A stretch of 44,427 nt of DNA from a virus, in IMG/VR virus record IMGVR_UViG_3300023172_000055, positions 1 to 44,427 of that record; one strand, given 5' to 3'. Shown one piece after another: positions 3,004 through 39,143 of this stretch (position 1 is the stretch's first letter; every line of letters starts with the position of its first letter). The notes under the pieces were generated by a model. It worked only from the letters and a program-made list of their open reading frames with translations. It did no database searches and was not told the DNA's origin. The position numbers were made by a program, and so were the translations under genes.

Positions 3004-5433
3004 ATGAGCGAGAGTTTAGTAACCATTTTTAGGAACATCAAGGAGACCGAGCAGCCCTTCTATAGAGATGTGGACTTTATCCTTAATAGAATCAAAGAGG
3101 GCGCATCCAAAGAACTCGTAAAGAGAATCCGCTTGGAGAAAGAGAAGAGCGTCATCAATGAACTGAAGCAACAACTGCCTGCCGTCTGCTTTAGTGGCAC
3201 ATTCAACAAGAGGCAAGACAGCGCTATCCAAGAGCACAGCGGATTCCTCTGCCTTGACTTTGACGGCTACAAAAAACAAAAGGAATTACTCGAGGCCAAG
3301 GAGCGCTTGGCCAAGGACAAGTATGTATACTCGGTGTTCATTAGCCCGTCCGGCAAGGGACTCAAGGCTCTCGTGCGCATCCCGGCGGAGGTAGACAACC
3401 ACAAGAACTACTTCAATGCCCTTGAGAATTATTTCTCTGATGAGCACTTCGACAAGACAAGCAAGAACATTAGTCGTGTGTGCTACGAATCCTACGACCC
3501 ACTCATCTATATCAATCACAACTCAAGCGTATGGACAAGCCTTGAAGACCAACGCTACAATGAGATTGATAAAAAGAAAGACCGACCCACCATTCCAATC
3601 ACGGATGAGAACAAGATAGTTGACATCCTAATCCGTTGGTGGGAGAAGAAATATCCCATGGTGGAGGGGCAGCGCAATCACAATGTATATATCCTTGCCG
3701 CCGCATTCAATGACTTTGGCGTGAGCAAGTCTCTCGCTACCTATGTGCTGTCTCACTATCAAACCTCTGACTTTGGGGAGGGTGAGATTAAGAGAACGAT
3801 TGACTCAGCGTATTCAGCCACCGAGAAGTTCGGTACCCGATACTATGAGGACGAGGATAGGGTAACCCAAATCAAGAACAAGTTGAGAATGGGTGTGCCA
3901 AAAAAAGAAATCCGTCATCAACTTGAAGAGTCCAATGTTGATGGCGATACTATTGACTTGGTTATCTCTCGCATCGAAGAGGAGCAGGCCGGTCAAAAAT
4001 TTTGGACAAAGAGCGACAAGGGTGTGGTTAAGATTGTGCCTATTCAGTTCAAGATGTTCCTCGAGGACAACGGTTTTTATAAATACAATCCGGAGGGCAG
4101 TAAGAACTATGTGTTCGTAAGGGTAACCAATAACCTCATCGACCACACGAGCGAGAACGAAATTAAAGACTTTGTTCTTGACTATCTGCTTGACCTTCAG
4201 GATGCATTGGTGTACAATTACTTCGCTGACTTCACCCGATACTTCAAGGAAGATTTCCTTACGCTATTGGCGTCTATCGATGTGTACTTCATCGAGGACA
4301 CCAAGGATGCGGCCTACCTATATTATAAGAACTGCGCCGTAAAGATTACGCACGACCGGGTGGAGACTATCGACTACCTTGACCTCGGTGGATATGTGTG
4401 GAAGGACCACGTAATTGACCGGGTCTTTGAACCCGTCGATGAACCGACTACTGATTTTGAGAAGTTCATCTGCAACATCTGCAACAACGACACCAACCGG
4501 ATGAAGAGCATGGAGTCTACCATTGGGTTCCTGCTTCACGCCTACAAGGATTTGTCGTTCTGCCCCGCCGTCATCTTAAACGATGAGGTCATCAGCGATA
4601 ACCCTGAGGGTGGTACGGGTAAGGGCTTGCTCATGAATGGCATATCACAATTAAAGAAGTTGGTAGTCATCGACGGCAAGTCGTTCACCTTCGAGCGCTC
4701 GTTCGCATATCAGTTGGTATCGGCAGACACGCAGATACTATGTTTTGATGACGTTAGAAAGCACTTTGACTTTGAAAGGCTGTTCTCCGTGGTGACGGAG
4801 GGATTAACGCTTGAGAAGAAGAATAAGGACGCCATTAAGATTCCGTTCAGCAAGTCCCCCAAGATTACTATCACTACCAACTACGCCATCAAGGGCGCAG
4901 GCAACTCGTTTGCCCGGCGCAAGTGGGAGTTGGAGTTGCATCAGTATTATAACAAGCACTACACCCCGCTCGATGAGTTCGGTAAGTTGTTGTTCGGCGA
5001 TTGGGACGATGATGAGTGGTTGCAGTTCGACAACTACATGATTAACTGCCTTCGTGCTTACCTACGGACGGGATTGGTGCAGAGTTCGTTTGTTAACCTG
5101 AAGATTCGGCAGTTGTCAGCAGAGACATCACACGAGTTTATTGAGTGGTGCGGTCTCATCGACGGGAACATAGCATCGGAGGTGATGCTTGCTTTGATTG
5201 ATGGGCGCAAGGTTTACAAGCATGAGTTGTACATGGACTTTATCCAAGAGAACCCGGACTTCGCACCCAAGGCTAAGATGACTATCTCCCGAACGAGGTT
5301 CAATAAGTGGCTCACATCTTACTGCGTATTTAAATCAGAGGTTACGCCCGAAGAGGGGCGCGACTCGCAGGGCAGGTGGATGCGCATGAAGAGCAAGCAT
5401 GAGTTAGAGAAGAATGGAAAATTTGAATTCTAA
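3004..5433 (+). CDS. primase-helicase (BT4734/VirE-N primase fused to SF3/D5-like ATPase)
   Basis: An 809-residue fusion. Residues 1-180 match the BT4734-like VirE N-terminal archaeo-eukaryotic primase pattern: FLCLDFDGY near residue 82 gives the D-x-D metal pair, then SPSGKGLKALVRI near 117, and ISRVCYESYDP near 156. A helical PriCT-like middle follows. The C-terminal half is a P-loop ATPase with Walker A (EGGTGKGLLM near 536), a Walker B-like ILCFDDVRK near 579, and TITTNYAIKG with a trailing arginine pair (FARRKWEL) as sensor and arginine finger. It probably primes and unwinds the phage origin. The stop overlaps the helicase start (TAATG). No DNA polymerase gene is visible, so host polymerase is probably recruited. 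Confidence 0.88.
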   Translation: MSESLVTIFRNIKETEQPFYRDVDFILNRIKEGASKELVKRIRLEKEKSVINELKQQLPAVCFSGTFNKRQDSAIQEHSGFLCLDFDGYKKQKELLEAKERLAKDKYVYSVFISPSGKGLKALVRIPAEVDNHKNYFNALENYFSDEHFDKTSKNISRVCYESYDPLIYINHNSSVWTSLEDQRYNEIDKKKDRPTIPITDENKIVDILIRWWEKKYPMVEGQRNHNVYILAAAFNDFGVSKSLATYVLSHYQTSDFGEGEIKRTIDSAYSATEKFGTRYYEDEDRVTQIKNKLRMGVPKKEIRHQLEESNVDGDTIDLVISRIEEEQAGQKFWTKSDKGVVKIVPIQFKMFLEDNGFYKYNPEGSKNYVFVRVTNNLIDHTSENEIKDFVLDYLLDLQDALVYNYFADFTRYFKEDFLTLLASIDVYFIEDTKDAAYLYYKNCAVKITHDRVETIDYLDLGGYVWKDHVIDRVFEPVDEPTTDFEKFICNICNNDTNRMKSMESTIGFLLHAYKDLSFCPAVILNDEVISDNPEGGTGKGLLMNGISQLKKLVVIDGKSFTFERSFAYQLVSADTQILCFDDVRKHFDFERLFSVVTEGLTLEKKNKDAIKIPFSKSPKITITTNYAIKGAGNSFARRKWELELHQYYNKHYTPLDEFGKLLFGDWDDDEWLQFDNYMINCLRAYLRTGLVQSSFVNLKIRQLSAETSHEFIEWCGLIDGNIASEVMLALIDGRKVYKHELYMDFIQENPDFAPKAKMTISRTRFNKWLTSYCVFKSEVTPEEGRDSQGRWMRMKSKHELEKNGKFEF

Positions 5434-10304: not shown

Positions 10305-10377
10305 GCGCCTTTAGCTCAGTGGTTAGAGCAGTGGACTCATAATCCATTGGTCGTAGGTTCAAATCCTTCAAGGCGCA
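10305..10377 (+). tRNA. tRNA with CAT anticodon (Ile2 or Met)
   Basis: A 73-nt cloverleaf. The acceptor stem is GCGCCTT/AAGGCGC, the D stem GCTC/GAGC, the anticodon stem GTGGA/TCCAT with loop CTCATAA, and the T arm GTAGG-TTCAAAT-CCTTC has one T-T mismatch. The discriminator is A and CCA is not encoded. The text around the anticodon and D loop is closer to bacterial tRNA-Ile2, which reads AUA after lysidine modification, than to elongator Met. Ile2 is therefore my first choice. Confidence 0.85.
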
Positions 10378-10381
10378 CACC

Positions 10382-10454
10382 GCCCCCATAGCTTAATGGA
10401 TAGAGCAACGCACTTCTAATGCGTAGGTTGCTGGTTCGACTCCAGCTGGGGGTA
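10382..10454 (+). tRNA. tRNA-Arg (TCT anticodon)
   Basis: A 73-nt cloverleaf four bases after the first tRNA. The acceptor stem GCCCCCA/TGGGGGT has one G-T wobble, the anticodon stem ACGCA/TGCGT holds the loop CTTCTAA, and the T loop is TTCGACT. The anticodon TCT reads AGA. AGA and AUA are codons that phages often support with their own tRNAs. CCA is not encoded. Confidence 0.88.
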
Positions 10455-10488
10455 CAAAGTGTAAAATAAAAACACCACAAAGTGTAAA
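10454..10488. repeat. 12-bp direct repeat at the convergent junction
   Basis: ACAAAGTGTAAA occurs at 10454-10465 and 10477-10488, between the second tRNA (+) and the stop of the giant gene (-). No stem-loop terminator is visible in this 36-base gap, although transcription converges here. The repeat may bind a protein or be a relic of rearrangement. Confidence 0.55.
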
Positions 10489-10490
10489 GT

Positions 10491-13400
10491 CTACTCTCCA
10501 AGCATAGCCTTTCGGTACGCCTCAATCTCCTTATCGCTTTTCTTCTTATCTCCTCCTTCTATAACATAGTCAGAGTAGTTGAAGAGCCTGAGCAACGCCT
10601 CGCCCGGGTCCTTTGAATCGGGGATGGCTTCGATATTCTTAACCATCTTGTGGATGTTAGAAGCAGGGATGCCCGTCAGTTCTGTGATGTGATTAATCAT
10701 TCTCCACATGTACTTATCCTTCTTCACTGGGTCAGTAGCCTTGGTGAATGATTTGATATCCTTAAATACCAATCCAATCTGCTCGAATACAGGGAGCGTA
10801 GTAAATTCTCCAGCCCACGGAGCGCCACTAACGAGGTCCTTGACTGCCGTAAGAATATCTCCAACAATAAACAAGGCGTTGAGGTTGCCAAGCAATGCCG
10901 CACGGCCAAGTGCCTGCTCATCCTCCTCATCCCAATCGGAAAGTAATCCGGGAAGGCCGAGGGCAACCCATTGGAACACCATAGGAACAAGGATGTGATA
11001 TGTCACTACTCGTCTTGCGATATCACCATATCCGTCCTGTGTTGGTAGACCCTTCATCTTTCTACTTAGGCTCATGAAGGCGCTCATCTCTCTGCGAAGC
11101 AACGCCTTTGGTGAAGATAAGAACACATTCAAGAATCGGTATGCAGGGCCGCCAGTTTGGAACCAGTCCTTGTTGGTAATGCCACTATCTTGCTGCGTTC
11201 TGAGTGCCTGTTTAGTCGCCTTTTCGCTCGCATACTTCTGAGCCCCAGCCTCGTCACCGGGATTCTTCTCCAAGTACTGCTGCTTGTAGTACAAGTAGTT
11301 AGCAAGACCACCCATGATACCACCCTTGTCACCCTGCTTAACCAAGTACATGAGTGAGTTCATTAGGTTTCTCGTCTGCTCTTTTGTGACTGTAATATCC
11401 TTGCCACCTACCTTTTTATTTACAAGGATTGGAGACTCATTGAGAGAACCCTCATAGCTGTATCCTTCTAGGATATCTCCAATGTTTGAGTTCTCATATC
11501 TCTCCTGAAACAGGGGCGAGTTAGCATACCACTCCTTCCATAGTTTGCGAGCCTGAGGAAGAGCGAGGGCAGTGTACTTACTCCAGTTTGTGTAGCCGAT
11601 ATAGTCAGCAAAGGCAAATGCAGAAGTGAGCTGCTTCAGGAATACCGTTGGGTTGATGGCAAGCTTAGACTTGATATACATACCCATCATAGCATTGGCA
11701 AGCTGAGATTCGTTTTGAGAGATTCCCTTTCTTGCAACCTTTTGCATCATGTCCTTCAGAGCGTCGTATGTATTCTTACCACCGAGCTCTATGATTGCTG
11801 CCTTTACGTTCGCATTGTCAAGAACCTTGCTCAGGTCTCTCATGGCCTCAGCATAGGCACGGAAGTATTCCATGTCTTTGAGGTATGAGTTGAGCACCGA
11901 GTTGCCATCGACACTTTGAATGGGACGAGAGTTCTTTACCCTCGCCTTGGTAGACTGGCCACCAACGCTGGTCTGGTATTCAGAAGAGCCGGCCAGTAAG
12001 TCGAACTGAAGGTCGCCCTCTTCGCCCTCTCTAAAAATTCTGCCTGCATAGAACTGATTCCATGGCATGTTGGTTCTATAGATGGCCTTGTATACCTCGT
12101 TGTATTTTTCATACAGGCTGGGATACAGCTCGTTAACCTGCCAGTCTGCCCACTCTTTTGTCTTGGCATCAAGTCTGTCGGTAATCTGCTGCATGATTCT
12201 AGCATACTGGTTCTTACCAAACTTCTTCTCAAAGGATGCCACATTAGCGGGGTCCTTGTATTGATTATACAAGTAGTAAGCTTGGTTATTACTGAGAACA
12301 ACCTCAAGCTTTTCAAGCTGTCTAATTATCTGCGCCTTACGTTTGTTGGTGGCAGAGTCGTATTCCTTCTTCAGCTCATTAGCCTTCTCCTCGTTAAGCC
12401 ATATGACATTCTTGTCATTGATGAGGTCTTTACTCACAACAGGCACAGCATTACGCTGCATCTCAAGCTTGTAGTTATCGCCCCATATCTCCTTGGCTTT
12501 GTTGCTGATGATATCAAACACTTGTTTCTTGCCAGAGACAAAAGAAACTCGAGCCTTGAAGAGCCTGTCATCAAAGATTTCCATGAGCTTGTTGCCGCCC
12601 ATGGCCTCAGACAGTCCGCTTGATATTCTTTGAAGCAATAGAGCGAGGTCCATTTGCTTGGTGAAGAACTCATCCACGCTGTTCTTTATCTTACCAACAA
12701 AGGACTTAATACCTCCATCAAAGGTCTTCCTTCTCTGCTCCTTGTTCTTAAGTTCTATAAGCTTCTCCTTGTTAGCCTCTTCACCCTCCTCGGAAAGGTC
12801 GAGCTCCTCACCCGTGATGCCATTGTAGGCGTCAGATATAAGATGCTCATAGTAAGCACGTTGAGCATCAATCTCTCCGCGCATCTGCGAGCGACCCGTA
12901 GATATAAGAGTACGGAGGTTGTCTCTCACGGCAGCAAGGGCGTCTACCTTATGCGGGTTGTTATCCTCCATAAGCATCGCCTCGTTGTACATAAGAGCAA
13001 TAGAGAGCGCGTTCATCTCGTCGCTCTCTTCCTGCGTCAGCGCGGTCTTTACAGACAGCTTATTGAATCTCTTCTCCTGCTTCTGCATTAGGTCCTCAAT
13101 GTTCTGAGCAGACATACCCTCATCTACGAGCATTGGGCTCTTCTTATTGGTAAGGGAACCAAGGATGTTCTGCAAGGACACGCTTACTCTGCCCACTCTA
13201 CGACCCGATACCATTCTAGTGGTGGGGGTCTTCAGGAGTTTGTCAATAGCAGCACTTAGGTCACGCACATAGAACTCGTTGACGAATCCAGTGACGCGCT
13301 CCATCACTGCGGGCAGTGAGTCTGGAGTGGCGTCTGTGATAGCCTTCATCAGCTTGTTGACATCAGCCTTATTGAATACGGTCTTAGGCAAGTTCTTGCG

Positions 13401-16400
13401 GATGAACATGCGCATAGCGCGCTTAGCTTTTTCAAGTTCAGCCGCGCCCTTCTTCATGTTGGAAAGCATCGCACGCAACGCCTTGAAGTCCGCTTGGAAC
13501 TTCTTGTTGGCGGCGGGGATGTTCAATGCCTTGTCCAATCCAATCTGCATCTCCGCCTGAATGGTTGGGCTCTGCGCTTTAAAGAAATCAGAGTTAACCA
13601 ACAGCTCCTGAGCCTTGGCTCTTACATCCGCAGCGTTGTGTAGCAACACGCCCAATCTCTTGGCATTAGCATAGCGCTTAATCTTCTTGGTCAACTCGTT
13701 GAAGAACGCCTGACCCTGAGCAACACCGCCCTCCGCATTGGCGAAGCCATCGGGGAGCATAGTGCCCATCACATCGATAGGCACAGCGAGTGCTGACTTA
13801 ATCTCGGTGGCGCTGTATCCCTGCTCCTTCAAGAAAGCAGCTATAACTCTATCGGTGTAGCCCCTCTCGCGCACATCATTGATGAACTCGTAGATGCTCT
13901 GCGTTCCGGCGCCATAGCCTTGGCGGCGTAGTGAGTTGGCGCTTCCGCCCCCGCCAATAACTCTAAGGAATGGGTTGAAGAACTTCCCATCCAGCGTCAT
14001 GTGGTAACCGGAGACCTCACCGGTGCGCTCATCACGTCTAGGCTTTGTGCCGAGCCTGTCATCAAGCTTGCGCACAGCGATTCTAAACTGAGCGGGGTCG
14101 GTAGTAGCGGGAACAAATCCCTTATGGTTCATATTAAAGCGGTGACCTAGCTCCTGAGCCTGACTCTGAGGCTTAGCGCTCCAGTTCTGGTATGCAGTGG
14201 CGTCGCCCCTCTTCTGACGGATAGCGGGAGGTGGTTCAACGCCAGCCTCTGCCCTTAGGTATTCACCGTGGAGTCTCTGTATATCATTAAAGAGCTCTTG
14301 ACTTATAAATCCGTCTTTAAGCTCTTTGCGTGCTAAAGAATATCTTTCTGGGTCAACGCTCTTAGCCAAGAGATTGCCAGAGCTTTCCAGATACACACTG
14401 CTAATAAATTCACCATGGTCATCCCCGGCTATTTCCTCAATACTTCCGAGCGATTTCACTCTACTTGAAGTTGAAAAAAACGAACCGCCAACCGTAACTA
14501 GATTTGATATGACAATGGGAGTCGAGCCGGGACCCTCTTCTGAGCCTTCCCAAATAAGTAGGCCTGAAGCAACAGTCTTGAGCTTTCCGGTATCCTTGAA
14601 ATTTTCTGACGGCTTAAACTGTAACCCGCCACCCACATATTCAAGGTCGCCAAAAGAATCTACTTCTACATTAATGCTAACTTCTCCGGAGACGCTTCTT
14701 AAAGACCCAAGATTTATAGCGTGACCCGCGTAATCGTCTGACGCCGAAATGGTCAAATAATTTACAGTTTCTAAAGCCCCCAAGTCAAACCCTGAATCAC
14801 CTAAGCGGACTCTAAGAGAACCGACAATTTCTTTTAAGTGTGGACCAAGGGTTCTTAGTGTTTTATTGTCAGTTATTTGTAACGACCCTTCAAGTTTTTT
14901 TAATTTACCTAGGTCCCTCAGTCTTGATTTCTCTCCTATCACAATTGGGCTTGACCTAACAATTTCCTCAAGTTCTCCAAAGCTTTCTAAAGTATCCGGA
15001 ACCCCGTATTCAAAACGTCCAAGACGCTTCATCTTGCCAAGCGTTATTATTGAAGGCGGTAAATTTAAATCCCCTTCAACAACCTTCAACTCCCCAAGAG
15101 ACATTAATTTTTGTGCATATGACAAATCAAGATTGTCACCTACACGCTCTAATTTACCAAGAGACTCAAGCTGCCCTGCGCTATACAAGTTAACATTATC
15201 TTGGACAGTGGTTAAATTGCCAAGGCTTCTTATGTCGTTTACTATATGCACACCTTGGTCGACACTTGTTACTCCTATATGAAAATCTAAGGAGTTTTCT
15301 TGTATGAATAAATCACCGCCAACTAACTCAATATTACCGGTGCTGTTTTTATCATATATGGTTGCGTCCCCTTCAACAGTTTTTAAATTAGCGGGGATGA
15401 GCTGTGACTGTTGGTTGTAATGTCCCGCGATGACCCTCAAGCTTTTAGCACTATTGGAGATAGCGTTTGAAACCATTCGGACGGCCCCCTCTTCGCCATA
15501 CGCCTCAACGAGGCTTGCAAAAATGTCAAACGATGTAAAGCTCCCTCCCGAATAGAGCACTACATAGTCTGTAGCATGCGACACATAATCGGATGGGTCC
15601 TCGTTATTTATCGCTTCACCGAATAACTCAAACACCCTAGCTTTTCCTTTTATCTCAAGCCTGCTGCCAATTTGCTTCCCATCTCTCATGGCCTCTATCG
15701 CCGCAGCTTTTAAGCCCATACGAATTAAATTGTCGCCATAAAAGTTTCCAATAAGAACCTCGGTCTCCGGGGTTAATTCTTCCATGCCTCGGGCAACTTT
15801 TCCTTTTATCTCAGGAGCAACATCGTTAGCATCAATCTTTAAATTAAAGTCCTCATTGAGTCGCTCGACGAAACCATTTCCCCCATACTGCATGAAGCTG
15901 TATCGGTTTGCTTCAGCAGTAAGGCTAGATACCGTTCTAAAGTCCTGCAAGGTTAAAGGGCGCTTCGATATCTCCTCCCTAAACATCCTTATCTTTTCGT
16001 TGAAGCGCTGCCCCTCTGCCCATTTCTCACCGCCCGGAACGGCGCCACTTTCCAAGAACTGCTCAGCTACAGGGCGCATCTTTGGCTCCATCTGTTGTCC
16101 TTCAAGGATACCTCGCACCTCTTCAATGCTTCCTCTTCTTGTTCTTACGGCAATACGGGCTTTTGGCACGCCGCCTTTATCCGTTGTTACAAAGACATAG
16201 AAATCGCCGCCCCTAAGCTGCCCTTCGGCTCCGGTCTTTGTGCACCATGGCGTATCCTGAACAAGCTGACTTAAGGCGTCTGCGTTGTCATTAATATCTT
16301 GCTCACTAACACCGTCGCCACCGGGGAACTTAAGCCACGTGCCCTCAGCGGTATCGTACATCTTAAATGCCTTAACAACATTGGGCGCGTTGGCCATCAT

Positions 16401-19400
16401 CGTCTCAACGTATTCTTTTAATACTGCGTCTGATGATATGGTCTGCTCGCCAACCATTCTACTAATGGTGCCCTCGTCGTATGGCGTGTAGTTACGAAGA
16501 GTTTGGCGATTTCTCTTTTTGTAGCTCCCTGTTCTAGCGTCGTAGTTATGTGTGACGACAGCATCGAAAAGCATCAAGCGAATGGCGGGGGGTATACCGA
16601 TTTCATGTTGTAGAAAGGCTGCCCATTTCTTTATAGTGTCATCTTGAGTGACTTGATATTCGTTTAGCACACGCATTCTGTGATAATCACTTTCTGCCTT
16701 CTCTTCAATTTCCGCAACCGTTTTCCTACTGAGACCCATCCGGTCTGCTTCTTTTGCCTGACCAAGAATATCTTTGGTGATGTTATCGCCATCGTATATT
16801 TTAAGAAAGTCAATTATATAACTATCAGTTTGGTTAACCTGTGCGCCTATAGCAAACGCTATAGATTCTAGAAATCTATATACAGCCTGTGCTGGAGAGC
16901 TGCTTTTTGGGAATAGGCGGTTGGCCAATAGGATGACAGCATTAACATCTTTGAGATTTGTTTTTTTAACGTCTGCCCTATTAACATCGGCGGATGTATC
17001 TGAATCAAATAATAGGCTATCTAAAACCCTTTCAACAATGCCTTCGGCTCTACTCGCTTGAAGGATTTCTTCGCTGGTGGGCTCTACTCCATCTTTTTTA
17101 TAGCCCATTGCCGTGAAAAAGCGACCGCTATCTTCAAGAACTGGAAGTATCTCCCCCAGCATCTTAATGGCTTCCTGCTGGTACTTCTCTTGGATACCAG
17201 CCTTCTGATACTTAATGCCTTCAGTCGGAGTGATGGTAATCAATCCCTTCTTCTGACGCATAGCGTTCTTAGTTTCAAGGGTCTGAGGTGAGCGCTTCAT
17301 GCTTTGCGCACCATCATAAGCTACTCGAGTAACAGAGAATCCAAACTTCTCATAGAACTTAGTCAAGTCCTTGGCCATCTTTGCGAGCTTGGCTTCAGAA
17401 TACTCTTTACGAGTTACCGGGTCTCCTTGATATCGCTTTGTTGGATACGCATCAAGTTTAATAGTCAGGCCAAGTTTATCGGCGGCTGCCGTAATACGAT
17501 TCATTAACCTAGTGCCAGCTCCAGTTCCAGCAAGCCTTGGGTCAAATAATTCAATGCCATCTATGTATATAACATTACCCTCTTTAGGGCTGATACGTAT
17601 GTTCATTTCAAGCTCCGGATTCTCAACCGAAGTGTCCATAGTCATAAATCCACCCCGCATAATAATGCTTGGGAATATGTGGAAGTCTGGGTCGTTTGCC
17701 ATTTCGGCAAACAAGTTGGCTACATTGTTGTAAGGCTGATAGAATTCTCTACGCCAATTGAAATCCTCATCCATGAAGTACACCCTCACTTCGTCCGCGG
17801 TAAGAGCATCATCGGTACTTGTTGGATATGGTTTTCTTCCCTTTCTGTTCAGGCTTTCACGAGCCTCCTCGTTGGTCATCGCCTTCTTCTGACGAAGTGC
17901 TGGCTTCTTGACCTTGATGTTCTCGATAGCCATCTGCTGCTCTCCCGTAAGCTGAGCTGCTGGGAGGGCATCTTCTAGAGTAATGACCGTGGGCTCCTCA
18001 ACTATATCGGTAGGAATCTCAGCGACATACTGAGCGCCCATGGCGGAGCGTGCAGCCTGAGGCTTCGCTCTTTCTCCAATCTCTATCTGAGGACCGGTTA
18101 CTGGCTTGGCCTTGGGATATACTTTGCGCACATCCACGGCCTTATCGAACACCATTATGGGTGTCCCCTCAATAACAAACGGATAAGAGGGGTGGGTATC
18201 CATTCCCTCCTTGCGGGTATCGATTACCTTGCTGTCCTTATTGAACTGAATAGCAGATATAATATCTCCATATTGTACCTTCTCAAGAGATGGGTCGTTG
18301 ACATAGTCAAGAACGCCCGTCTTCATCTTTGCCGTTGGCATCAATGGCGGTATCCCAAAGCGCTCATAAGAGGTGGCAGAGAAGAACGACTTAGTGAATG
18401 CACCACGAGTGTCATATGAGATTACTCCCTTGCCTTCAATGGGCATAAGGTCTCTCAGGTCTTCCAAGGTTTCTATTTGTCCCTTGTGTCCTTTCTTCTC
18501 TAGCTGTTCGGCAATAGTAACGCCGGGAGTTCTTGATGCTGTTCTAAGTTTGGCGTTGACATAGTCAATCAATTCCTGTGGAGACGCGCCCTTCATGACG
18601 GCGTTCTGAATTTCCGCCATTAGATATTCATAAAAGGAAAGGCTACCAGCAATACCATCAGAAGCCTGAGACATCACCAATCCTACACCATCGCTCTCTT
18701 TTACTTTCTTTAGAATCTTGTTGGCTGCCGTCTCGCTAGTAAACGCCCAGCCCATACCGCTACCATAGGGGTATAGGTATCCACCCTTGAAGAAGTATCT
18801 CGTTCCAGATGGGCTCTCAATTTCACCATAGGTTGCTTGGTCGGCTGCAAATACAAACGCATTAGCGCCCGACAAGTCGTTGATGCTACCGCGCTTGATA
18901 GCCTCTATGTCGATGCCACCTCGGTTAAGCTGCTGCTTGCGTGTGGCGTTTATGTTTATAGAATCTGAGCCCTTCTCATTAATGTTCTCAGCAACAGTGC
19001 CAGATGCGACTGTTGAGCCGGGCTCCGCAGCGCTATCAAGAACAACGAGGTCAGCCGCTACAATCGCCTTGCCTCTCGCAACCTTGCGGGCGAGGACGTC
19101 AAGCATAGCGGTTACGCTCTCGTCGGTTTTACCAAACTCAGAAGGAAGAGACACATTGAATGCTCTCGCCAATCGCTTAATAAACTCTACAATCTGTCCC
19201 TTAACCGTCGACGTTGCGTTGACGTACTCTCTAGACAGCGCACCCATGAGCTGAGCGAGGCGCTCCTCATTCTGGAAGTTCTCGTCGTAGTTCTGTGCGA
19301 AGGCATCAATCTCTTTTGCTAGGGCACTGTCATCCGCAAGAGTCTTGCGGACATTCTCCATCATGGTCTTGGCCACAGCCTGAGCCTTGGAGTCCGTTCT

Positions 19401-21881
19401 AACCTTGTTCAAGAATATAGCATGGAACACCTCGTGCGCTACCGTGCTTGCGTCCGCTGTCGCAAGGTTGATATGGATTACGCCATCGTTGTAGGCGCCC
19501 TCATCTGTCGCTGCTGTTCCGGTGTTCTTAGAGAACTCCTCGCCTGTGGCGTGAAGTATAATCTTCACATCGGGCAACAGCTTTTGAATGGCCTTAGCTC
19601 CACGAACGGCGAGCTTCTCAATGCGAGTCTGCTCCTTAGTGAGTGGCTGTGCGCCCGTCTCATTAACGACCAGATTGTCGGAGAGCTTTCTACCCCCCTC
19701 GAATACGGCAGCAACCTCTTCATTTGTGGCGGCAGCTACTGGTGCTTGACCAAGCGCTTCAGCCTTGAGGTCTTCGAGTTGTTGTTGCTCCTCCTCAGTG
19801 AGGGTTACTTCTTCTTCGACACGCGCTTCGGGAGCGACTTCAGGTTCTGCTTGGGGTGCTCCTTCCGCCACTTCTTCGCCAACTCTGGCTTCTGGCTGAA
19901 CAGGAACTTCACTTGTTGCTTGCTCTTGAATGGCATCTTCTTGTGATTTTGTATATAGTTCTTTTATCTTCTCATCAATCTTAGCGACCTTTTCTTTTGC
20001 TATAGACTGAACCGCATCGTCCTTACCGGCGACCTTTTCTAAAGTTAACTGCTTTTCTCTTACGAGATTAAACATCTCTGCCTGAGCTTCCTCCGGCATA
20101 TCCTCGGGGATTTTACCAAGAACGTCAATGAACTCATCAACATTGGCAATCACCCTATCACCTTCGGCTCGTTCCATCTTACCAGCAGCAACCTGTTGGT
20201 CGATGTACTCAGATACTTTTTCTCTTTTAATTGCGCCAACAAATTCCTTGGCCTGCTTGAAGTCTTCTGATGTAACACCCTCAGGTCTAGAGAATGCACC
20301 GACTGTTCCAGCTATAATGCCACCGCCAATAGCTTCTTGAGCTCCGGCATATAGCACGTCCATCACAATTTCTTGTGCGGTCTTTGGCTTGAAAATATTC
20401 TTGCCTTGAGAGTCGGTTACATATTGATTAATCAAATCATTTGACAACTCCTGAAGAGCACCCGTCTCAAATTCAGAGAGGCCACCCTTTGTAATCTTAC
20501 TGGCGTATCCCCTTAATCCCTTGGCTTCTTGGCGAACAACTCTTTCAAAAGCCTCGGCTCCCACGTCTTCGCCCATTCCAGCAAGTCGGGTAAGAACCTT
20601 ACCCGCCAAAATTCTTTTCACCATGGGCATCCCATTCAGGGTGTTTCTCAAACCAACTCTTTCAAGTATTCCCTCAATGCCAGCGGTGGCGAGTAAGTAT
20701 GTTTGTCTTTGAGCCTCAGTCATTTGAAGGTCTGGATTCGCAGCAAGCTCATTTGCTAATTGCTCTTCCGCCGCCTGATAAGACATGTCCATAAAAGATA
20801 AGCCCATCGTAGAAGCAGATGTTGCCATCGCGGGCAACGAGGTCATTAGTCCACGAACGGCACCCGAAAAGAATCTATCCTGAAGCTCTCTCTCTTTTCT
20901 TTTATCAATGGCGTATCCAGCCTTTTTGATAATTTCCTCTCGGCCCGCTTCCTTTATATATGGTAGAACTTCATTCTCAATACCCTTGTCTACCGTGGCA
21001 AAGTATTCCATGTATGCCGCATTGGCCGCAAGGGCATCTGAGTAGCCATCATCAATGGCCTTCTTATACATAACATATAAGTCGGGGTGCTTATCTTTTT
21101 TGTCCTCAATAAAGCGAGCAATCACCTGACCGTTCAGTGAGTTCTCTTCTCGGATATTGTTAACCCAGTTTCCAAATCCCTCAATGAGACCGTTCCACTT
21201 GTCGCCAACCCACTCTCCAGCAGTAACTTCTACTGGCTCAAGTAATTCTGATTTATCCTCTTTGGGTTTTACTAAACCTTTTACTACTTGGTTAAATGCA
21301 ACAAATGGGGCGGCAAGCGTTGGAACCTCTGGAGCCTTTATCTCCTCGGGTTGCGGCATCTCAACGGCGCCCTCTTCAATGCGACCCTCCATAACTGCCT
21401 GAGCCTCTGGAGATATCCCTTCTTCGCCAGCAATAGCGCCGGTCTCAAGGTCCATAGTAATGCCCTCCTCGGTAACAACCTCGGTTGGTCTAGTCTCATA
21501 TGGCACAGGAATGGGCTGCTCTTGTGGAGCAACACCGCCCGCCTCTTGGATAGCCTGCTGCGTCTGTGGCGCTAAGCGTGGAGACGGGGGGAGTGTAAGG
21601 TCACGCCCGGGTAAAGAAGCCAAAGTAGGCGTCTCCATAGGAGAAGCCAACTGCTCTTCTTGAAAAGAAACCTCTGAAGGTTCTTCTTTTTTTTTTAATG
21701 GAGCATACTTTACATCGAACTCTTCACGCCCTTTGGTATATAAGCCGTCTCTAGTTACAACACCAAATACTTTATCTCTATATTGTGGGTCTTCGTACTT
21801 AACTATAAACTCTTCATATGAGTTGGTATAGTAACCCTTAGATACGAGGGTGTCGTATAACTTTTTGAGCTCGTCATTCAT
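10491..21881 (-). CDS. giant polyvalent / internal virion-type protein, 3796 aa
   Basis: A single uninterrupted frame of 3796 residues. N to C: two short repeats (KLYDTLVSKGYYTNS..., residues 1-60); low-complexity P/E linkers; glycine/alanine-rich membrane-active stretches near 340-360 and 510-530; a zincin motif HEVFH at 816-820 with NEERLAQL at 871 as a likely third ligand; a GNAT-like segment near 1400-1525 (LAGTGAGTRLMNRI); a PWCTKTG...FYVFVTTD domain near 1875; LRR-like repeats about 2170-2495; and a helical C-terminal third with a hydrophobic stretch near 3630-3655. This matches the polyvalent proteins described by Iyer and colleagues, which are packaged and delivered with phage DNA. 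It lies last in the virion operon, after the internal virion proteins. The short motif RQK[K/R] recurs at domain borders. Individual catalytic activities are inferred, not shown. Confidence 0.85.
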   Translation of the reverse strand: MNDELKKLYDTLVSKGYYTNSYEEFIVKYEDPQYRDKVFGVVTRDGLYTKGREEFDVKYAPLKKKEEPSEVSFQEEQLASPMETPTLASLPGRDLTLPPSPRLAPQTQQAIQEAGGVAPQEQPIPVPYETRPTEVVTEEGITMDLETGAIAGEEGISPEAQAVMEGRIEEGAVEMPQPEEIKAPEVPTLAAPFVAFNQVVKGLVKPKEDKSELLEPVEVTAGEWVGDKWNGLIEGFGNWVNNIREENSLNGQVIARFIEDKKDKHPDLYVMYKKAIDDGYSDALAANAAYMEYFATVDKGIENEVLPYIKEAGREEIIKKAGYAIDKRKERELQDRFFSGAVRGLMTSLPAMATSASTMGLSFMDMSYQAAEEQLANELAANPDLQMTEAQRQTYLLATAGIEGILERVGLRNTLNGMPMVKRILAGKVLTRLAGMGEDVGAEAFERVVRQEAKGLRGYASKITKGGLSEFETGALQELSNDLINQYVTDSQGKNIFKPKTAQEIVMDVLYAGAQEAIGGGIIAGTVGAFSRPEGVTSEDFKQAKEFVGAIKREKVSEYIDQQVAAGKMERAEGDRVIANVDEFIDVLGKIPEDMPEEAQAEMFNLVREKQLTLEKVAGKDDAVQSIAKEKVAKIDEKIKELYTKSQEDAIQEQATSEVPVQPEARVGEEVAEGAPQAEPEVAPEARVEEEVTLTEEEQQQLEDLKAEALGQAPVAAATNEEVAAVFEGGRKLSDNLVVNETGAQPLTKEQTRIEKLAVRGAKAIQKLLPDVKIILHATGEEFSKNTGTAATDEGAYNDGVIHINLATADASTVAHEVFHAIFLNKVRTDSKAQAVAKTMMENVRKTLADDSALAKEIDAFAQNYDENFQNEERLAQLMGALSREYVNATSTVKGQIVEFIKRLARAFNVSLPSEFGKTDESVTAMLDVLARKVARGKAIVAADLVVLDSAAEPGSTVASGTVAENINEKGSDSININATRKQQLNRGGIDIEAIKRGSINDLSGANAFVFAADQATYGEIESPSGTRYFFKGGYLYPYGSGMGWAFTSETAANKILKKVKESDGVGLVMSQASDGIAGSLSFYEYLMAEIQNAVMKGASPQELIDYVNAKLRTASRTPGVTIAEQLEKKGHKGQIETLEDLRDLMPIEGKGVISYDTRGAFTKSFFSATSYERFGIPPLMPTAKMKTGVLDYVNDPSLEKVQYGDIISAIQFNKDSKVIDTRKEGMDTHPSYPFVIEGTPIMVFDKAVDVRKVYPKAKPVTGPQIEIGERAKPQAARSAMGAQYVAEIPTDIVEEPTVITLEDALPAAQLTGEQQMAIENIKVKKPALRQKKAMTNEEARESLNRKGRKPYPTSTDDALTADEVRVYFMDEDFNWRREFYQPYNNVANLFAEMANDPDFHIFPSIIMRGGFMTMDTSVENPELEMNIRISPKEGNVIYIDGIELFDPRLAGTGAGTRLMNRITAAADKLGLTIKLDAYPTKRYQGDPVTRKEYSEAKLAKMAKDLTKFYEKFGFSVTRVAYDGAQSMKRSPQTLETKNAMRQKKGLITITPTEGIKYQKAGIQEKYQQEAIKMLGEILPVLEDSGRFFTAMGYKKDGVEPTSEEILQASRAEGIVERVLDSLLFDSDTSADVNRADVKKTNLKDVNAVILLANRLFPKSSSPAQAVYRFLESIAFAIGAQVNQTDSYIIDFLKIYDGDNITKDILGQAKEADRMGLSRKTVAEIEEKAESDYHRMRVLNEYQVTQDDTIKKWAAFLQHEIGIPPAIRLMLFDAVVTHNYDARTGSYKKRNRQTLRNYTPYDEGTISRMVGEQTISSDAVLKEYVETMMANAPNVVKAFKMYDTAEGTWLKFPGGDGVSEQDINDNADALSQLVQDTPWCTKTGAEGQLRGGDFYVFVTTDKGGVPKARIAVRTRRGSIEEVRGILEGQQMEPKMRPVAEQFLESGAVPGGEKWAEGQRFNEKIRMFREEISKRPLTLQDFRTVSSLTAEANRYSFMQYGGNGFVERLNEDFNLKIDANDVAPEIKGKVARGMEELTPETEVLIGNFYGDNLIRMGLKAAAIEAMRDGKQIGSRLEIKGKARVFELFGEAINNEDPSDYVSHATDYVVLYSGGSFTSFDIFASLVEAYGEEGAVRMVSNAISNSAKSLRVIAGHYNQQSQLIPANLKTVEGDATIYDKNSTGNIELVGGDLFIQENSLDFHIGVTSVDQGVHIVNDIRSLGNLTTVQDNVNLYSAGQLESLGKLERVGDNLDLSYAQKLMSLGELKVVEGDLNLPPSIITLGKMKRLGRFEYGVPDTLESFGELEEIVRSSPIVIGEKSRLRDLGKLKKLEGSLQITDNKTLRTLGPHLKEIVGSLRVRLGDSGFDLGALETVNYLTISASDDYAGHAINLGSLRSVSGEVSINVEVDSFGDLEYVGGGLQFKPSENFKDTGKLKTVASGLLIWEGSEEGPGSTPIVISNLVTVGGSFFSTSSRVKSLGSIEEIAGDDHGEFISSVYLESSGNLLAKSVDPERYSLARKELKDGFISQELFNDIQRLHGEYLRAEAGVEPPPAIRQKRGDATAYQNWSAKPQSQAQELGHRFNMNHKGFVPATTDPAQFRIAVRKLDDRLGTKPRRDERTGEVSGYHMTLDGKFFNPFLRVIGGGGSANSLRRQGYGAGTQSIYEFINDVRERGYTDRVIAAFLKEQGYSATEIKSALAVPIDVMGTMLPDGFANAEGGVAQGQAFFNELTKKIKRYANAKRLGVLLHNAADVRAKAQELLVNSDFFKAQSPTIQAEMQIGLDKALNIPAANKKFQADFKALRAMLSNMKKGAAELEKAKRAMRMFIRKNLPKTVFNKADVNKLMKAITDATPDSLPAVMERVTGFVNEFYVRDLSAAIDKLLKTPTTRMVSGRRVGRVSVSLQNILGSLTNKKSPMLVDEGMSAQNIEDLMQKQEKRFNKLSVKTALTQEESDEMNALSIALMYNEAMLMEDNNPHKVDALAAVRDNLRTLISTGRSQMRGEIDAQRAYYEHLISDAYNGITGEELDLSEEGEEANKEKLIELKNKEQRRKTFDGGIKSFVGKIKNSVDEFFTKQMDLALLLQRISSGLSEAMGGNKLMEIFDDRLFKARVSFVSGKKQVFDIISNKAKEIWGDNYKLEMQRNAVPVVSKDLINDKNVIWLNEEKANELKKEYDSATNKRKAQIIRQLEKLEVVLSNNQAYYLYNQYKDPANVASFEKKFGKNQYARIMQQITDRLDAKTKEWADWQVNELYPSLYEKYNEVYKAIYRTNMPWNQFYAGRIFREGEEGDLQFDLLAGSSEYQTSVGGQSTKARVKNSRPIQSVDGNSVLNSYLKDMEYFRAYAEAMRDLSKVLDNANVKAAIIELGGKNTYDALKDMMQKVARKGISQNESQLANAMMGMYIKSKLAINPTVFLKQLTSAFAFADYIGYTNWSKYTALALPQARKLWKEWYANSPLFQERYENSNIGDILEGYSYEGSLNESPILVNKKVGGKDITVTKEQTRNLMNSLMYLVKQGDKGGIMGGLANYLYYKQQYLEKNPGDEAGAQKYASEKATKQALRTQQDSGITNKDWFQTGGPAYRFLNVFLSSPKALLRREMSAFMSLSRKMKGLPTQDGYGDIARRVVTYHILVPMVFQWVALGLPGLLSDWDEEDEQALGRAALLGNLNALFIVGDILTAVKDLVSGAPWAGEFTTLPVFEQIGLVFKDIKSFTKATDPVKKDKYMWRMINHITELTGIPASNIHKMVKNIEAIPDSKDPGEALLRLFNYSDYVIEGGDKKKSDKEIEAYRKAMLGE
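14205..14225 (-). repeat. RQKR linker motif, copy 3 (AIRQKRG)
   Basis: Residues 2553-2559 of the giant protein read AIRQKRG. The copy lies between the end of the LRR-like block and the helical C-terminal third, after a PPPAI turn. It matches the copies at residues 1328-1334 and 1540-1546. Confidence 0.7.
14400..15370 (-). repeat. LRR-like repeat block inside the giant gene
   Basis: About residues 2170-2495 of the giant protein consist of tandem units of roughly 19-24 residues, with the pattern SLGxLxxVxGxLxLxxS (for example SLGNLTTVQDNVNLYSAG, SLGKLERVGDNLDLSYA, SLGELKVVEGDLNL). This is a leucine-rich-repeat-like solenoid, usually used for protein binding. The DNA here is visibly richer in A+T than the rest of the gene: 38% G+C in bases 14881-14940 against 58% in 13441-13500. 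Confidence 0.75.
17244..17264 (-). repeat. RQKK linker motif, copy 2 (AMRQKKG)
   Basis: Residues 1540-1546 of the giant protein read AMRQKKG, just after the GNAT-like segment. A degenerate relative, KYQKAG, follows at 1557-1562. Confidence 0.7.
17880..17900 (-). repeat. RQKK linker motif, copy 1 (ALRQKKA)
   Basis: Residues 1328-1334 of the giant protein read ALRQKKA, just before the GNAT-like segment. Together with copy 2 it brackets a piece of about 205 residues. Confidence 0.7.
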
Positions 21882-33622: not shown

Positions 33623-33648
33623 AAAAAAATGAACCCTTATCTGGGCTC
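33623..33648 (-). terminator. terminator-like hairpin overlapping the portal stop codon
   Basis: The minus strand reads GAGCCC-AGATAA-GGGTTC-A followed by seven T. The 6-bp stem contains one G-T pair. The TAA stop of the portal gene lies within the loop. A ribosome finishing the portal would cover the stem, so translation could influence termination. Confidence 0.65.
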
Positions 33649-36072
33649 AAATTCTGCAAAGTCAAAGCCATCCAACGAGTCTTCGTTTGATTCAAAGTTG
33701 ATGGAGGGCAATGTTTTTTGGCGCTGCTCTATGAGCTTAGACTGCTGAGTATTTTGTCGGTCAATTCTCTTGGCCTTCTCGTCCTCTTTCATCTTGTCTC
33801 TCTCCGTCAAGGCCCCAACCTCTACGCCCTTAATGCGCATCTGGTATGAGAACTCTTCGGCCATCAAAGACTTCTTCAGTTCTGCCTCATTGCGCATCTT
33901 TTCAATTTCGAATGCAATCTCGGCCTGCTTAACCTGCATCTTAGATTGAGACTCGAGTTGTATTTTTTGAGCAGCAATCTCAGCAGCCATCTGTTGTGAC
34001 TGCATATTTATCTGAGCCTGAGCTTGTTGCTTCTGCATCTCTGCCATTTGCATTTGCTCAAAGTTCTTAGCCCTCTTAACCTTTAGAAGCTGGTTTGCAA
34101 GCTTCAAGTTTTTAACCTCGCGAATATCAATGGCATCCTCAAGACTAATATCTCCCTTCGACAATGCCATCTGGATATTTGCTTCAAGCTGCGCCTTCTG
34201 CTCTTCGTCTGGAGAAACCTCAATAAAGATTCCGAAGTCGTAAATGTAGAGGTCTTTAATCTGGTCAAGTATTCTAACGTTGTACTTGCCAATCTGCATC
34301 GTGAACTCTTCCTTAAAGTCTGAGTACTGCAAGATGTCCGCAACACGACAAGACAAAGCCTCGGCGAGCGAGCGAGTCATAAATAGGCTCCCCTCCAAAA
34401 TGTGTCGGGTCGCCGTATTTGAGTTAAGAGCAGCAAGCTTCTGCACGCCAACGAGAGCGTTGGGGTCTGGTGTAGAACCATCCCTCGCTTCATTAAGGCC
34501 AGTCACCGCACGAATCATATCCATGTAGTGGTTGTAATTCCCAATGAGAGCCGCCATCTTGGATTGCCCAGAGCTGGCTGTCAACTGCTGAATCGGTACG
34601 CGAGCATTATTAAACTCACCATCCTGAGTATAGGAACGACCAACCACGCTACCGGTTTGGAAATATAGGCGTAGTGCGTCCTCTGGGTTGTATGCTGCCC
34701 CCGTTCCGAGGTCAACCTCATTCAGGCCATCTGCATCAATGAAGACGCCATCAGGGACAACCTTCGATATTACTTGCTGTAGCTTGAGGTGTGTGAGCTG
34801 AATCAAGTCAGCGAATGGAATCATTCTTCTAACCAAAGACTCGATGTTACCCTTGTACATTCTGGGAGCAACAGCAATATAATTTGGAAGGGCATTCTGC
34901 GTAGCTGACTTTGGACGAACCATGTTCTCCATCATCTGCCACTTGAGCATGATGTTTGTTCCCATCACCATGACGCCCTCATACCATACATCGATGGTTT
35001 TTTCCACCTTTTCGAACTTTCCGTCCTGCATCATTTCTACAGGTGGGTTAAAGGTGTCATCCTTCTCAATGACTCTAGAGCCGCCGGTTTCGTTTATCTT
35101 TTTCTTGTAGACAAACTTCTTAGTTGTCTTGTAATTGAAATACAACAACGTTGCCGTGTCCTTGTAGAAGATGTCGTTCTCATAGAACTGTGCAACATTA
35201 TAATAATCATACCAGCTTTGGCTATACTGAGAAATTTCTTCAAGGTCCTTGTTTGTGAGCGATGGGTCAATCTTAATTAATTCCGTAATTGGAAGTGTTT
35301 TAATCTCTCCCCAGTAGAAGCAATCTCTAAAGTATGGGTCCTCTGTATAACTATAAACCACATTAGCTGGGTCTACATAGCTAACTCTAACGCCATCCCC
35401 CGCAAGGAACTCGTGCTTGATTGTTCCAACGCCAATGGTTGCAATGTCATAGTCCACCCGTCTGCGTGTGTCATCGTAATGATTTTCCGCAAGCAATGTG
35501 TTGATGGCTTCCTCTTCAGCTATCTCAATGGATGGCTTATACTTTAACTGCATGTGCAGCTTAAGCTCGTCCTCATCTCTGGGGAGTTCCATTGGGTTAA
35601 CATTAAATGGATTGATGCCAAACGCTTCAGACATTTTTGTCAAAGCATCTTTCGCAACCATATCGCCTTCTACGACATCTTGATATTGGTTTCTCTTCTC
35701 TGCCGATACCGCATCCTGAGCGTATGCTTTTACCGTGAATAGTCTGTCAGACATACCGTTTACAACGATGTCTACAAACTTTGGAAGGATTGGAACTGGC
35801 GTCCAGTCTAGGTTCAAATAACTAAGGTCACCGTCAATAGCCAGCTCATTTTTGTATTTAGCAACCGACTGCTCTCCCCTAGCATATAGTCTCAAGCGAT
35901 TGAAGTCTCTCCACTGGTTGTAGTACCTACAGCCGTTTCCATCTTTACGGAACCATTCGTATTGAATGGCTTGGCCTATCTGTAGGCCGAACTCATCCGT
36001 GGCTTTCTCTGAATCAGAAACAAATTGACTTGGAAACCCAGTGGCTGATATATTTACTTTAACTTCTTTCAT
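33637..36072 (-). CDS. portal protein
   Basis: An 811-residue portal protein, larger than most (usual range 450-750). It lies directly after the large terminase and shares the ATGA overlap with it. Residues 60-230 give the mixed N-terminal wing (WFRKDGNGCRYYNQWRDFNRLRLYARGEQ). The middle contains LIQLTHLKLQQVISKVVPDGVFIDADGLNEVDLGTGAAYNPEDALRLYF and the stem-like ALIGNYNHYMDMIRAVTGLNEARDGS. The last 150 residues (QMAEMQKQQAQAQINMQSQQMAAEIAAQKIQ...) form a long glutamine-rich coiled coil, probably the barrel reaching into the head. Position and pattern fit Bacteroidota short-tailed phages. Confidence 0.87.
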   Translation of the reverse strand: MKEVKVNISATGFPSQFVSDSEKATDEFGLQIGQAIQYEWFRKDGNGCRYYNQWRDFNRLRLYARGEQSVAKYKNELAIDGDLSYLNLDWTPVPILPKFVDIVVNGMSDRLFTVKAYAQDAVSAEKRNQYQDVVEGDMVAKDALTKMSEAFGINPFNVNPMELPRDEDELKLHMQLKYKPSIEIAEEEAINTLLAENHYDDTRRRVDYDIATIGVGTIKHEFLAGDGVRVSYVDPANVVYSYTEDPYFRDCFYWGEIKTLPITELIKIDPSLTNKDLEEISQYSQSWYDYYNVAQFYENDIFYKDTATLLYFNYKTTKKFVYKKKINETGGSRVIEKDDTFNPPVEMMQDGKFEKVEKTIDVWYEGVMVMGTNIMLKWQMMENMVRPKSATQNALPNYIAVAPRMYKGNIESLVRRMIPFADLIQLTHLKLQQVISKVVPDGVFIDADGLNEVDLGTGAAYNPEDALRLYFQTGSVVGRSYTQDGEFNNARVPIQQLTASSGQSKMAALIGNYNHYMDMIRAVTGLNEARDGSTPDPNALVGVQKLAALNSNTATRHILEGSLFMTRSLAEALSCRVADILQYSDFKEEFTMQIGKYNVRILDQIKDLYIYDFGIFIEVSPDEEQKAQLEANIQMALSKGDISLEDAIDIREVKNLKLANQLLKVKRAKNFEQMQMAEMQKQQAQAQINMQSQQMAAEIAAQKIQLESQSKMQVKQAEIAFEIEKMRNEAELKKSLMAEEFSYQMRIKGVEVGALTERDKMKEDEKAKRIDRQNTQQSKLIEQRQKTLPSINFESNEDSLDGFDFAEFEPR

Positions 36073-38351: not shown

Positions 38352-38580
38352 TAGAATCTCCGCTTAACGCGGCCTTCTCTTGTTCTATTCTTGATAAAAT
38401 TTCAAACGCATCAAAGATTGCCAGCTTCTTTGTTGCTGCGGCATTCTTTAGTCGGTCCGCAGCCAGCTCGCTGTCCGGGTCATCGTGAACAATGATTCCC
38501 TCCTCAGCAACCTTAATAAGCTCTTCTACAGCCCGCTGGCCAGCCCTTATGATTCGCTCTTTAATTTCATTTGAATTCAT
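38296..38580 (-). CDS. candidate terminase small subunit
   Basis: A 94-residue helical protein from the ATG at 38580. A longer version would use a TTG five codons upstream, but ATG 38580 shares the A of the previous TAA (TAATG), as elsewhere in this operon. The N-terminal helix (SNEIKERIIRAGQRAVEELIKVAEEG) and the helix AADRLKNAAATKKLAIFDAFEILSRIEQEK are joined by an acidic turn. The gene ends inside the terL start region, overlapping by 56 bases. Position and helical make-up suggest TerS, but no HTH is obvious. Confidence 0.62.
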   Translation of the reverse strand: MNSNEIKERIIRAGQRAVEELIKVAEEGIIVHDDPDSELAADRLKNAAATKKLAIFDAFEILSRIEQEKAALSGDSIGEQTTQSKQGFAERRAK

Positions 38581-39143
38581 TACAGCAAGATACAAATGTT
38601 TTTGCTGTTCATCCTATAGAGCTTTTCTCCGTCTATCTCAAACTCATACTCCGTCCCCGGCGTATAGACCACCTCGTCACCAACTGACAGTCCCATTTGA
38701 GACAGGTCTTGAGTTATGTATTTTATACGCCCAACTAGCGGTTCCTTTGATGAGGTCTTGTGTAAGTAGTAGTCTTTCTTGTCTGATGGAGACAAAAAAC
38801 AATACTTACCCATAGACTTCCACTCTTCTCCATTGTGAAACATAAAGAACTGGTCCTCGTCTACAAAAAACAAATCGCCACCAAGGAAGCTTCTTCCGCT
38901 TCGCTCTCTGCCGCGCATATCATTGTAAAACTTAAACACATTGTGGTGCACCAGCAATGTGTCACCAACCTTTATCTCTCCAGAATAATGAGCAGGAACC
39001 TCAACAACTTCAGCGAACCTATTCGATACCCTGTGGTCTTCCTTTGATGAGCTAATAATAAATTCAATTCCGCCAAAATCACGGACGTTGTCGTATCTGC
39101 GTCCGCTTACTGGCTTAACAATAAAGTAGAATGGAGAGCGCAT
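38580..39143 (-). CDS. duplicated GroES-like (co-chaperonin) protein, 187 aa
   Basis: The protein carries two GroES-like halves. In the first, FAEVVEVP...GEIKVGDTLLVHHNVF (43-70) and FFVDEDQFFMF (92-102) match the GroES beta-barrel and its closing strand. In the second, GRIKYITQDL...LSVGDEVVYTPGTEYEFEIDGEKLYRMNSKNICIL (138-186) matches again. Family GroES is about 95 residues, so 187 fits a tandem duplication. Co-chaperonins of phages (T4 gp31, for example) adapt host GroEL to fold the capsid protein. Its place just ahead of packaging and capsid genes fits that. No phage GroEL is present, so it would have to cap the host chaperonin. Confidence 0.7.
   Translation of the reverse strand: MRSPFYFIVKPVSGRRYDNVRDFGGIEFIISSSKEDHRVSNRFAEVVEVPAHYSGEIKVGDTLLVHHNVFKFYNDMRGRERSGRSFLGGDLFFVDEDQFFMFHNGEEWKSMGKYCFLSPSDKKDYYLHKTSSKEPLVGRIKYITQDLSQMGLSVGDEVVYTPGTEYEFEIDGEKLYRMNSKNICILL

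Follow-up and report, generated by a model that had tools for sequence, protein, structure and literature searches.

Polyvalent proteins, as portrayed by Iyer et al. (2017; PMC5512222), belong to phages and conjugative elements, are encoded alongside virion or late genes or in a conjugation operon, and join many unrelated domains, GNAT effectors among them, in architectures that are shuffled between relatives; they enter the host together with the DNA. In that study, as far as its main text goes, zincins are named as the hub of these proteins and autoprocessing is proposed, with P1 DdrB cited as processed and the N4 virion RNA polymerase, TraC1 and ArdC cited as not processed; the zincins of these proteins are sorted there into 12 clades. 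No cleavage site appears in the main text as searched, where the phrase occurs only in the title of a reference. The N4 virion RNA polymerase is a virion-packaged protein of about 3500 residues, in which a large helical C-terminal domain comes after an HExxH (zincin-like) domain (PMC12633501). In the Bacteroidota podovirus PhicrAss001, the large cargo proteins gp45-gp50 are stored in the virion and ejected (PMC10172136), and the main text of the paper describing them contains neither protease nor proteolysis nor any word in cleav-. A survey of the literature on phage polyproteins with zincins or cleavage motifs, covering papers readable without subscription, found nothing closer.

Here we describe W, a giant polyvalent protein encoded in a 44,427-nucleotide window that comprises the whole of a single IMG/VR record (IMGVR_UViG_3300023172_000055). 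W resembles the proteins of Iyer et al. in its many unrelated domains, zincin hub, GNAT effector, virion operon and shuffling, but its family differs from those described in the main text of that study in possessing a recurrent motif at domain borders, with concerted variants. The PhicrAss001 cargo proteins are comparable with W by their description. W also shares with the N4 polymerase the succession of an HExxH domain and a large helical C-terminal domain, and a Pfam search at E values up to 10 matched no T7-like RNA polymerase domain in W; the N4 protein is reported as unprocessed (PMC5512222), unlike what we propose for W. On balance we think it fairly probable that the border motifs are processing sites of the resident zincin and that W is a virion-borne, self-cleaving effector polyprotein.

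Genomic context of W

The W frame occupies positions 10491..21881 on the minus strand, begins with ATG and encodes 3796 residues with no internal stop, in agreement with the single uninterrupted frame of the first-pass annotation, which had given no strand. An intact and 100% identical copy in a separately assembled contig, IMGVR_UViG_3300023173_000034 (L003), indicates that this ORF is not an assembly artefact. W had been placed at the end of the virion operon, a position that proves to be conserved. The minus-strand block runs from terminase (36069-38351) and portal (33637-36072) through virion structural families, including PHROGs 13704, 14543, 13977 and 14478, and three more genes to W. 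The same order is found in Caudoviricetes sp. MW202828, whose portal is 73% identical to that of the phage encoding W, in Flavobacterium phage elemo and, by position, in Cellulophaga phi38:1. The last gene of the operon is also large in these relatives (3859, 3694 and 1691 residues, respectively), and in elemo and phi38:1 its product carries a structural annotation. Comparison of W with phi38:1 gp101 and phi19:3 gp129 detected no homology in sequence, the relationship being one of synteny only.

The elemo counterpart, gp18, is like W in its place in the syntenic operon and in having a zincin and the Z2 domain described below, but its cargo differs; it contains TRQQK, a form of the border motif described below, at about residue 2079. 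The laboratory host of elemo is Flavobacterium sp. BAL314. The MW202828 giant holds the same syntenic place and shares the N1, Z2 and C-terminal parts of W, but carries HEFGH zincin-like motifs and different cargo. Tenacibaculum phage Gundel_1 (Pachyviridae) encodes a 2482-residue structural protein, gp74, with a homologous C-terminal part and a GNAT, but with an HEFGH zincin-like motif, no R[QK]QK and a different gene order around it. Because of the syntenic operon end and the structural annotation of its counterparts, W very probably serves as virion cargo in a phage that infects Flavobacteriia or other Bacteroidota, the host being that suggested by the relatives; the phage itself is read as lytic and podovirus-like, and is probably one of Bacteroidota.

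Two tRNA genes, tRNA-Met (CAT) and tRNA-Arg (TCT), are located on the plus strand at 10305-10455, in the interval that separates the 3′ end of W from the early genes converging on it. A gene for a GroES-like co-chaperonin (38580-39143) adjoins the terminase gene, likewise in elemo and phi38:1, and MW202828 also encodes GroEL.

Modular architecture of W

The polyvalent character proposed in the first-pass annotation, with a zincin, a GNAT and an LRR in one polypeptide, stands and is extended by two further modules, WCT and Z2; whole W gives no significant match in Pfam or PHROGs. All modules are given below with their minus-strand coordinates. The N-terminal tag N1 (residues 1-75; 21657..21881) opens the giant ORF in each of the 20 matches inspected, has 46 matches in a larger, redundant set and is also matched on the MW202828 giant (E 4e-6); it could be a packaging signal. 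It is followed by a conserved N-terminal region, N2 (residues 330-660; 19902..20894), which is weakly hydrophobic near residue 510.

The zincin metalloprotease domain (residues 735-940; 19062..19679) is delineated by conservation, profile and model. It contains HEVFH (residues 816-820; 19422..19436), the predicted zinc-binding and catalytic motif, and NEE (residues 871-873; 19263..19271), the probable third zinc ligand; both lie where they had first been read, as do LAGTGAGTRLMNRI at 1450, PWCT at 1878 and FYVF at 1894. HE, FH, Glu 872 and Glu 873 are invariant across 63-70 aligned zincin relatives. The best PDB matches of the zincin profile are two IrrE proteins (E 0.011 and 0.062), so that IrrE/peptidase M78 is the best match of solved structure, albeit a local one: the alignment spans the strand and the HExxH helix only (GxYxP..IHIN..AHExxHA), with the third-ligand region unaligned. 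IrrE is a site-specific HExxH protease. Weak matches to DUF5700, a putative zinc peptidase, are given by 24 of 63 zincin members. In the AF2 model, zincin blocks have pLDDT values mostly of 70-90, with an HExxH helix and the downstream Glu in the following helix. The invariant residues, the IrrE-like profile match and the modelled helices together bear out the zincin suspected in the first-pass annotation, and the prediction of a metalloprotease that is intact by motif is well supported. The zincin alignment retrieved 126 relatives in viral contigs (80 of them fetched), nearly all in ORFs of about 2000-4500 residues. Among GTDB genomes, a single zincin relative (L113; E 3e-5, 72 residues matched) is located on a contig of a Bacillota MAG, possibly a misbinned phage contig.

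The zincin is often followed by Z2 (residues 940-1296; 17994..19064), an alpha/beta domain of unassigned function with a degenerate border site before it, RKQQ (residues 981-984; 18930..18941), at pLDDT under 50. Border site 1, PALRQKK (residues 1327-1333; 17883..17903), lies in a predicted disordered linker, beyond which comes a GNAT acetyltransferase-like domain (residues about 1366-1530; 17292..17786). The GNAT reading gains support from the fold: all 50 listed PDB matches are GNATs, the best among those listed by Foldseek being 3efa (E 2.7e-3, probability 1.0), for a part of the model that is of middling confidence (blocks of about 33 to 80 pLDDT). Pfam alone reaches E 0.11 on this region. 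A G-x-G-A-G loop and FYxxFGF are common to W and a homolog, L052; the acetyl-CoA loop (R/Q-x-x-G-x-G/A) reads LAGTGAGTRL in W, where the leading basic residue is absent, and DRGSGAGTRL in the homolog. GNATs occur at differing places in the giants, with three copies in one of them (L098), as well as in Gundel_1 gp74.

Border site 2, NAMRQKK followed by G (residues 1539-1545; 17247..17267), stands immediately ahead of the WCT module (residues 1545-2110; 15552..17249). This segment, first singled out by its PWCT and FYVF motifs, is a recurrent module in whose alignment the WCTK, GDFYV and RG columns are invariant, and it is followed by an LRR in nine of the nine giants of the module scan. WCT has no convincing Pfam match beyond the LRR at the module end and was found in no prokaryote genome; a fold search in the PDB also returned no match, a null that is not conclusive given the model pLDDT of 63. 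By these comparisons WCT appears to be a novel, phage-only domain that is always coupled to an LRR. The LRR solenoid itself, of receptor-L/EndoS-LRR type (residues 2141-2505; 14367..15461), includes the repeats recognised earlier at about residues 2165-2500; homology was confirmed through relatives of the module, which match Recep_L_domain (PF01030, 1.1e-8) and EndoS LRR (PF23952, 2.6e-8), the LRR of W having on its own only a match to LRR_14 at 0.0012, below the cut-off.

Border site 3, PAIRQKR (residues 2552-2558; 14208..14228), is found ahead of the conserved C-terminal part. The first portion of this part, C1 (residues 2570-2900; 13182..14174), begins with a small FNMN domain, which is bracketed by border sites in many relatives, and the second, C2 (residues 2900-3796; 10494..13184), includes the last 642 residues, relatives of which are encoded by 180 viral stretches. 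Hydrophobic stretches had been noted near residues 340, 520 and 3640. Only the C-terminal pair is convincing, with neighbouring helices at 3630-3648 and 3662-3680 (Kyte-Doolittle means of 1.76 and 1.72) that may form a membrane hairpin (residues 3630-3680; 10842..10994), whereas the stretch near 520 is weak (1.27) and that near 340 falls outside the ten best.

A constant frame with an exchangeable slot

The giants share a common frame consisting of N1, N2, zincin, often Z2, a variable slot, C1 and C2, and its N-terminal, zincin and C-terminal parts were found in more than 100 giant ORFs. In W the slot measures 1.27 kaa and is occupied by GNAT, WCT and LRR. It is empty in some giants, as seen in L021, where the segments matching W up to residue 1296 and from residue 2570 touch each other (1556/1564). 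The architecture is shuffled between the relatives of W: in pairwise comparison the match between W and elemo gp18 is essentially confined to the zincin region and that between W and Gundel gp74 to the C terminus, a pattern that already shows mosaicism. The domain set of W is one deal among many shuffled ones in a large family, a point that the first-pass annotation had missed.

An alignment of 12 C-terminal members gave 180 matches in viral contigs (80 fetched); queries of viral contigs with whole W, or with an alignment of three distant C-termini, returned the identical copy only. Against these 180 C-terminal and 126 zincin matches in viral contigs, 84,980 prokaryote genomes yielded one doubtful match. 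Neither the constant frame nor the WCT module has a convincing match in Pfam or the PDB. That the polyvalent proteins gain a member with a motif-intact zincin and a GNAT fold is the ordinary part of the finding; the family frame with its cargo slot and the WCT module are a new part.

A short motif at the module borders

The three joints of W read by eye, PALRQKK (1327), NAMRQKK (1539) and PAIRQKR (2552), have the common form A-[LMI]-R-Q-K-[KR]. W contains three copies of A[LIMV]RQK[KR], all at module borders, against 0.0016 expected from shuffles of W. The joints of relatives read RKQK, RQQK or RQQR, and the family-wide motif is roughly [RK]-x-[QK]-[KR], the W form RQKK differing from the commonest one, RQQK. 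Among 65 non-redundant giants, R[QK]QK was observed 49 times versus 5.1 +/- 2.3 in shuffles, and R[QK]Q[KR] is found in 35 independent sequence contexts. By comparison, a non-redundant control set of 370 further ORFs from the contigs that carry the giants, which at 188 kaa amounts to about the same quantity of sequence, contains two copies of R[QK]QK versus 2.1 expected, and the permuted motifs K[QR]QK and R[QK]EK are not enriched in the 65 giants. None of the motif forms tested is present in 28 of 95 zincin giants.

The sites are depleted within modules, 13 of 82 lying deep inside versus a module coverage of 34% (25-residue margin); a simple inside/outside split of R[QK]Q[KR] is not significant (13/55, P 0.2) because many sites fall on the first residues of module matches. 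The modelled sites of W (981, 1327 and 1539) are in, or at the edge of, stretches with pLDDT under 50 that are probably disordered. The processing hypothesis was examined on the data that suggested it, and the control ORFs, the zincin-less giants and the WCT copies provide partly independent checks of the border motif.

These counts bear on another reading, in which W remains a single chain in the manner of the N4 virion RNA polymerase or T7 gp16: an ejection channel would be formed by the C-terminal helices and hairpin, the tethered zincin and GNAT would act on the host, and the motif would be a flexible basic linker. The N4 polymerase, packaged unprocessed with its HExxH domain (PMC5512222), sets a precedent, and the strong conservation of the C-terminal part with its hydrophobic hairpin agrees with such a role. 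A basic linker would, however, leave unexplained why one specific 4-mer is enriched and its permuted versions are not, why control proteins lack it and why its copies change in concert (see below), and we regard this reading as unlikely.

Concerted variation of the motif

The form of the motif varies from giant to giant, and its copies vary together. Giants with an HE[VI]FH zincin contain 67 R[QK]QK (5.7 expected), those with HEAFH contain 12 REQK (0.7 expected) and no R[QK]QK, and those with HEVMH contain 18 EK[AN]Q[KR] (0.2 expected). In giants lacking the VAHExFH zincin, most of which have an unrelated HE[MFY]GH, the motif is near chance level. Members of within-giant pairs are of the same type in 69 of 83 cases versus 37.6 +/- 3.9 after permutation; HEAFH occurs with REQ[KR] in 8/8 cases and HE[VI]FH with R[QK]Q[KR] in 40/44, all such motif counts being inflated by kinship among the giants. 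Homologous places show the same variation: at the site preceding Z2, W has RKQQ, L153 has REQK and L134 has EKNQK, and the joint ahead of WCT reads KSQK, KAQK, RKQK, RKRK, RQQK, REQK or RQKK, depending on the giant. When the 4-mer that a giant carries ahead of WCT is sought elsewhere in that giant, exact further copies total eight over seven giants (shuffles predict about 0.5), and the 42 cross comparisons between giants give three copies. This exact-match count replaces an initial six-protein permutation of the WCT sites (1/720), for which partner sites had been picked by hand.

The motif type changes six times on the zincin tree and eight times on the C-terminal tree, with only two independent contrasts or pairs on well-supported branches, which makes a tree-based test of the coupling underpowered. 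A coupling of the motif to the third letter of HExxH was dropped on account of L172, whose zincin reads HEIFH, falls in the EK[AN]QK clade and is accompanied by the motif of that clade. Judged from these sequences, a given protein tends to keep to one variant of the motif, and the variant tends to go with the clade of the zincin. The concerted sites look like sites recognised by one common, protein-specific factor, and the factor at hand would be the zincin in cis.

Two groups of giants deserve mention. In the giant ORF of L134 (residues 1959-2042), and also in L148, L155 and L162, three EK[AN]Q[KR] sites flank a small FNMN-like domain, the final pair being spaced eight residues apart. In L123, L139, L132, L149, L130, L141, L120 and L002, giants of the C-terminal family, an unrelated HE[MFY]GH replaces the VAHExFH zincin and the border motif is absent.

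Concerted change requires only some shared recognising factor, and the motif might therefore be a signal for something other than the zincin, either a tag by which every module docks to capsid or portal or the target of some other protease, from phage or host; further proteases may sit among the unannotated genes of the phage. The motif type nevertheless tends to follow the zincin type, which a capsid tag need not do, and it is missing from giants with the unrelated HE[MFY]GH zincin, so that we give this reading a slight chance. Recombination seams, that is, short DNA repeats for cargo exchange with no role at the protein level, are very improbable: the modules are clearly shuffled and the three sites of W share a 10-mer, CGTCAGAAGA, in a gene where CGT makes up only 17% of Arg codons, but the 70 R[QK]QK sites of the family are encoded by 31 different 12-mers and only 5 of 38 within-giant pairs are DNA-identical, which argues that the motif is kept as protein and not as DNA. 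In W itself all three border sites use CGT CAG AAG, which keeps an explanation at the level of DNA in play to some extent; such sharing of codons is not a feature of the whole family. The common codons of these sites (17883-17903, 17247-17267 and 14208-14228) are also a hint of intragenic duplication.

Proposed processing of W

The computations show the modules and how they are shuffled, the presence of the motif at the joints, its absence from other proteins and its concerted variation within each giant; that the motif is cut, that the zincin in cis does the cutting and that W is packaged and injected are our inferences. In the proposed scheme, a constant frame, made of the N-terminal tag and region, the zincin and the C-terminal part with its hydrophobic hairpin, would carry an exchangeable cargo slot, filled in W by GNAT, WCT and LRR. 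Within the disordered linkers that join the modules, the built-in zincin would recognise a short motif of basic residues and Gln (A-[LMI]-R-Q-K-[KR] in the case of W) and cut at it. The GNAT, the WCT-LRR unit and the C-terminal part would each be freed in this way, in the assembling virion or after injection, as a protein of its own. As the recurrent border motif points to processing, the zincin may act first on its own chain and need not be solely host-directed.

A broader form of this proposal, to which we assign an even chance, is that a large group of lytic phages, probably of Bacteroidota, uses self-cleaving effector polyproteins with a private cleavage code, in which each protein has one type of site at all its joints, differing by zincin clade, and imported cargo is re-tagged to match the protease. 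Such proteins would be a bacteriophage counterpart of the polyproteins of RNA viruses.

Until now, processing of polyvalent proteins by their zincins has been proposed with no site to go with it. The border motif with its concerted variants appears to be new and, at the level of sequence, gives site-level support to the processing proposed in the main text of Iyer et al. (2017), making that proposal directly testable. The motif at the joints would allow the borders of cargo modules to be recognised in the sequences of metagenomic phages, and the set of zincins would be a natural library of site-specific proteases. If the processing reading is true, host-takeover sets, including WCT-LRR and injected acetyltransferases, would be delivered through one gene with a swappable slot.
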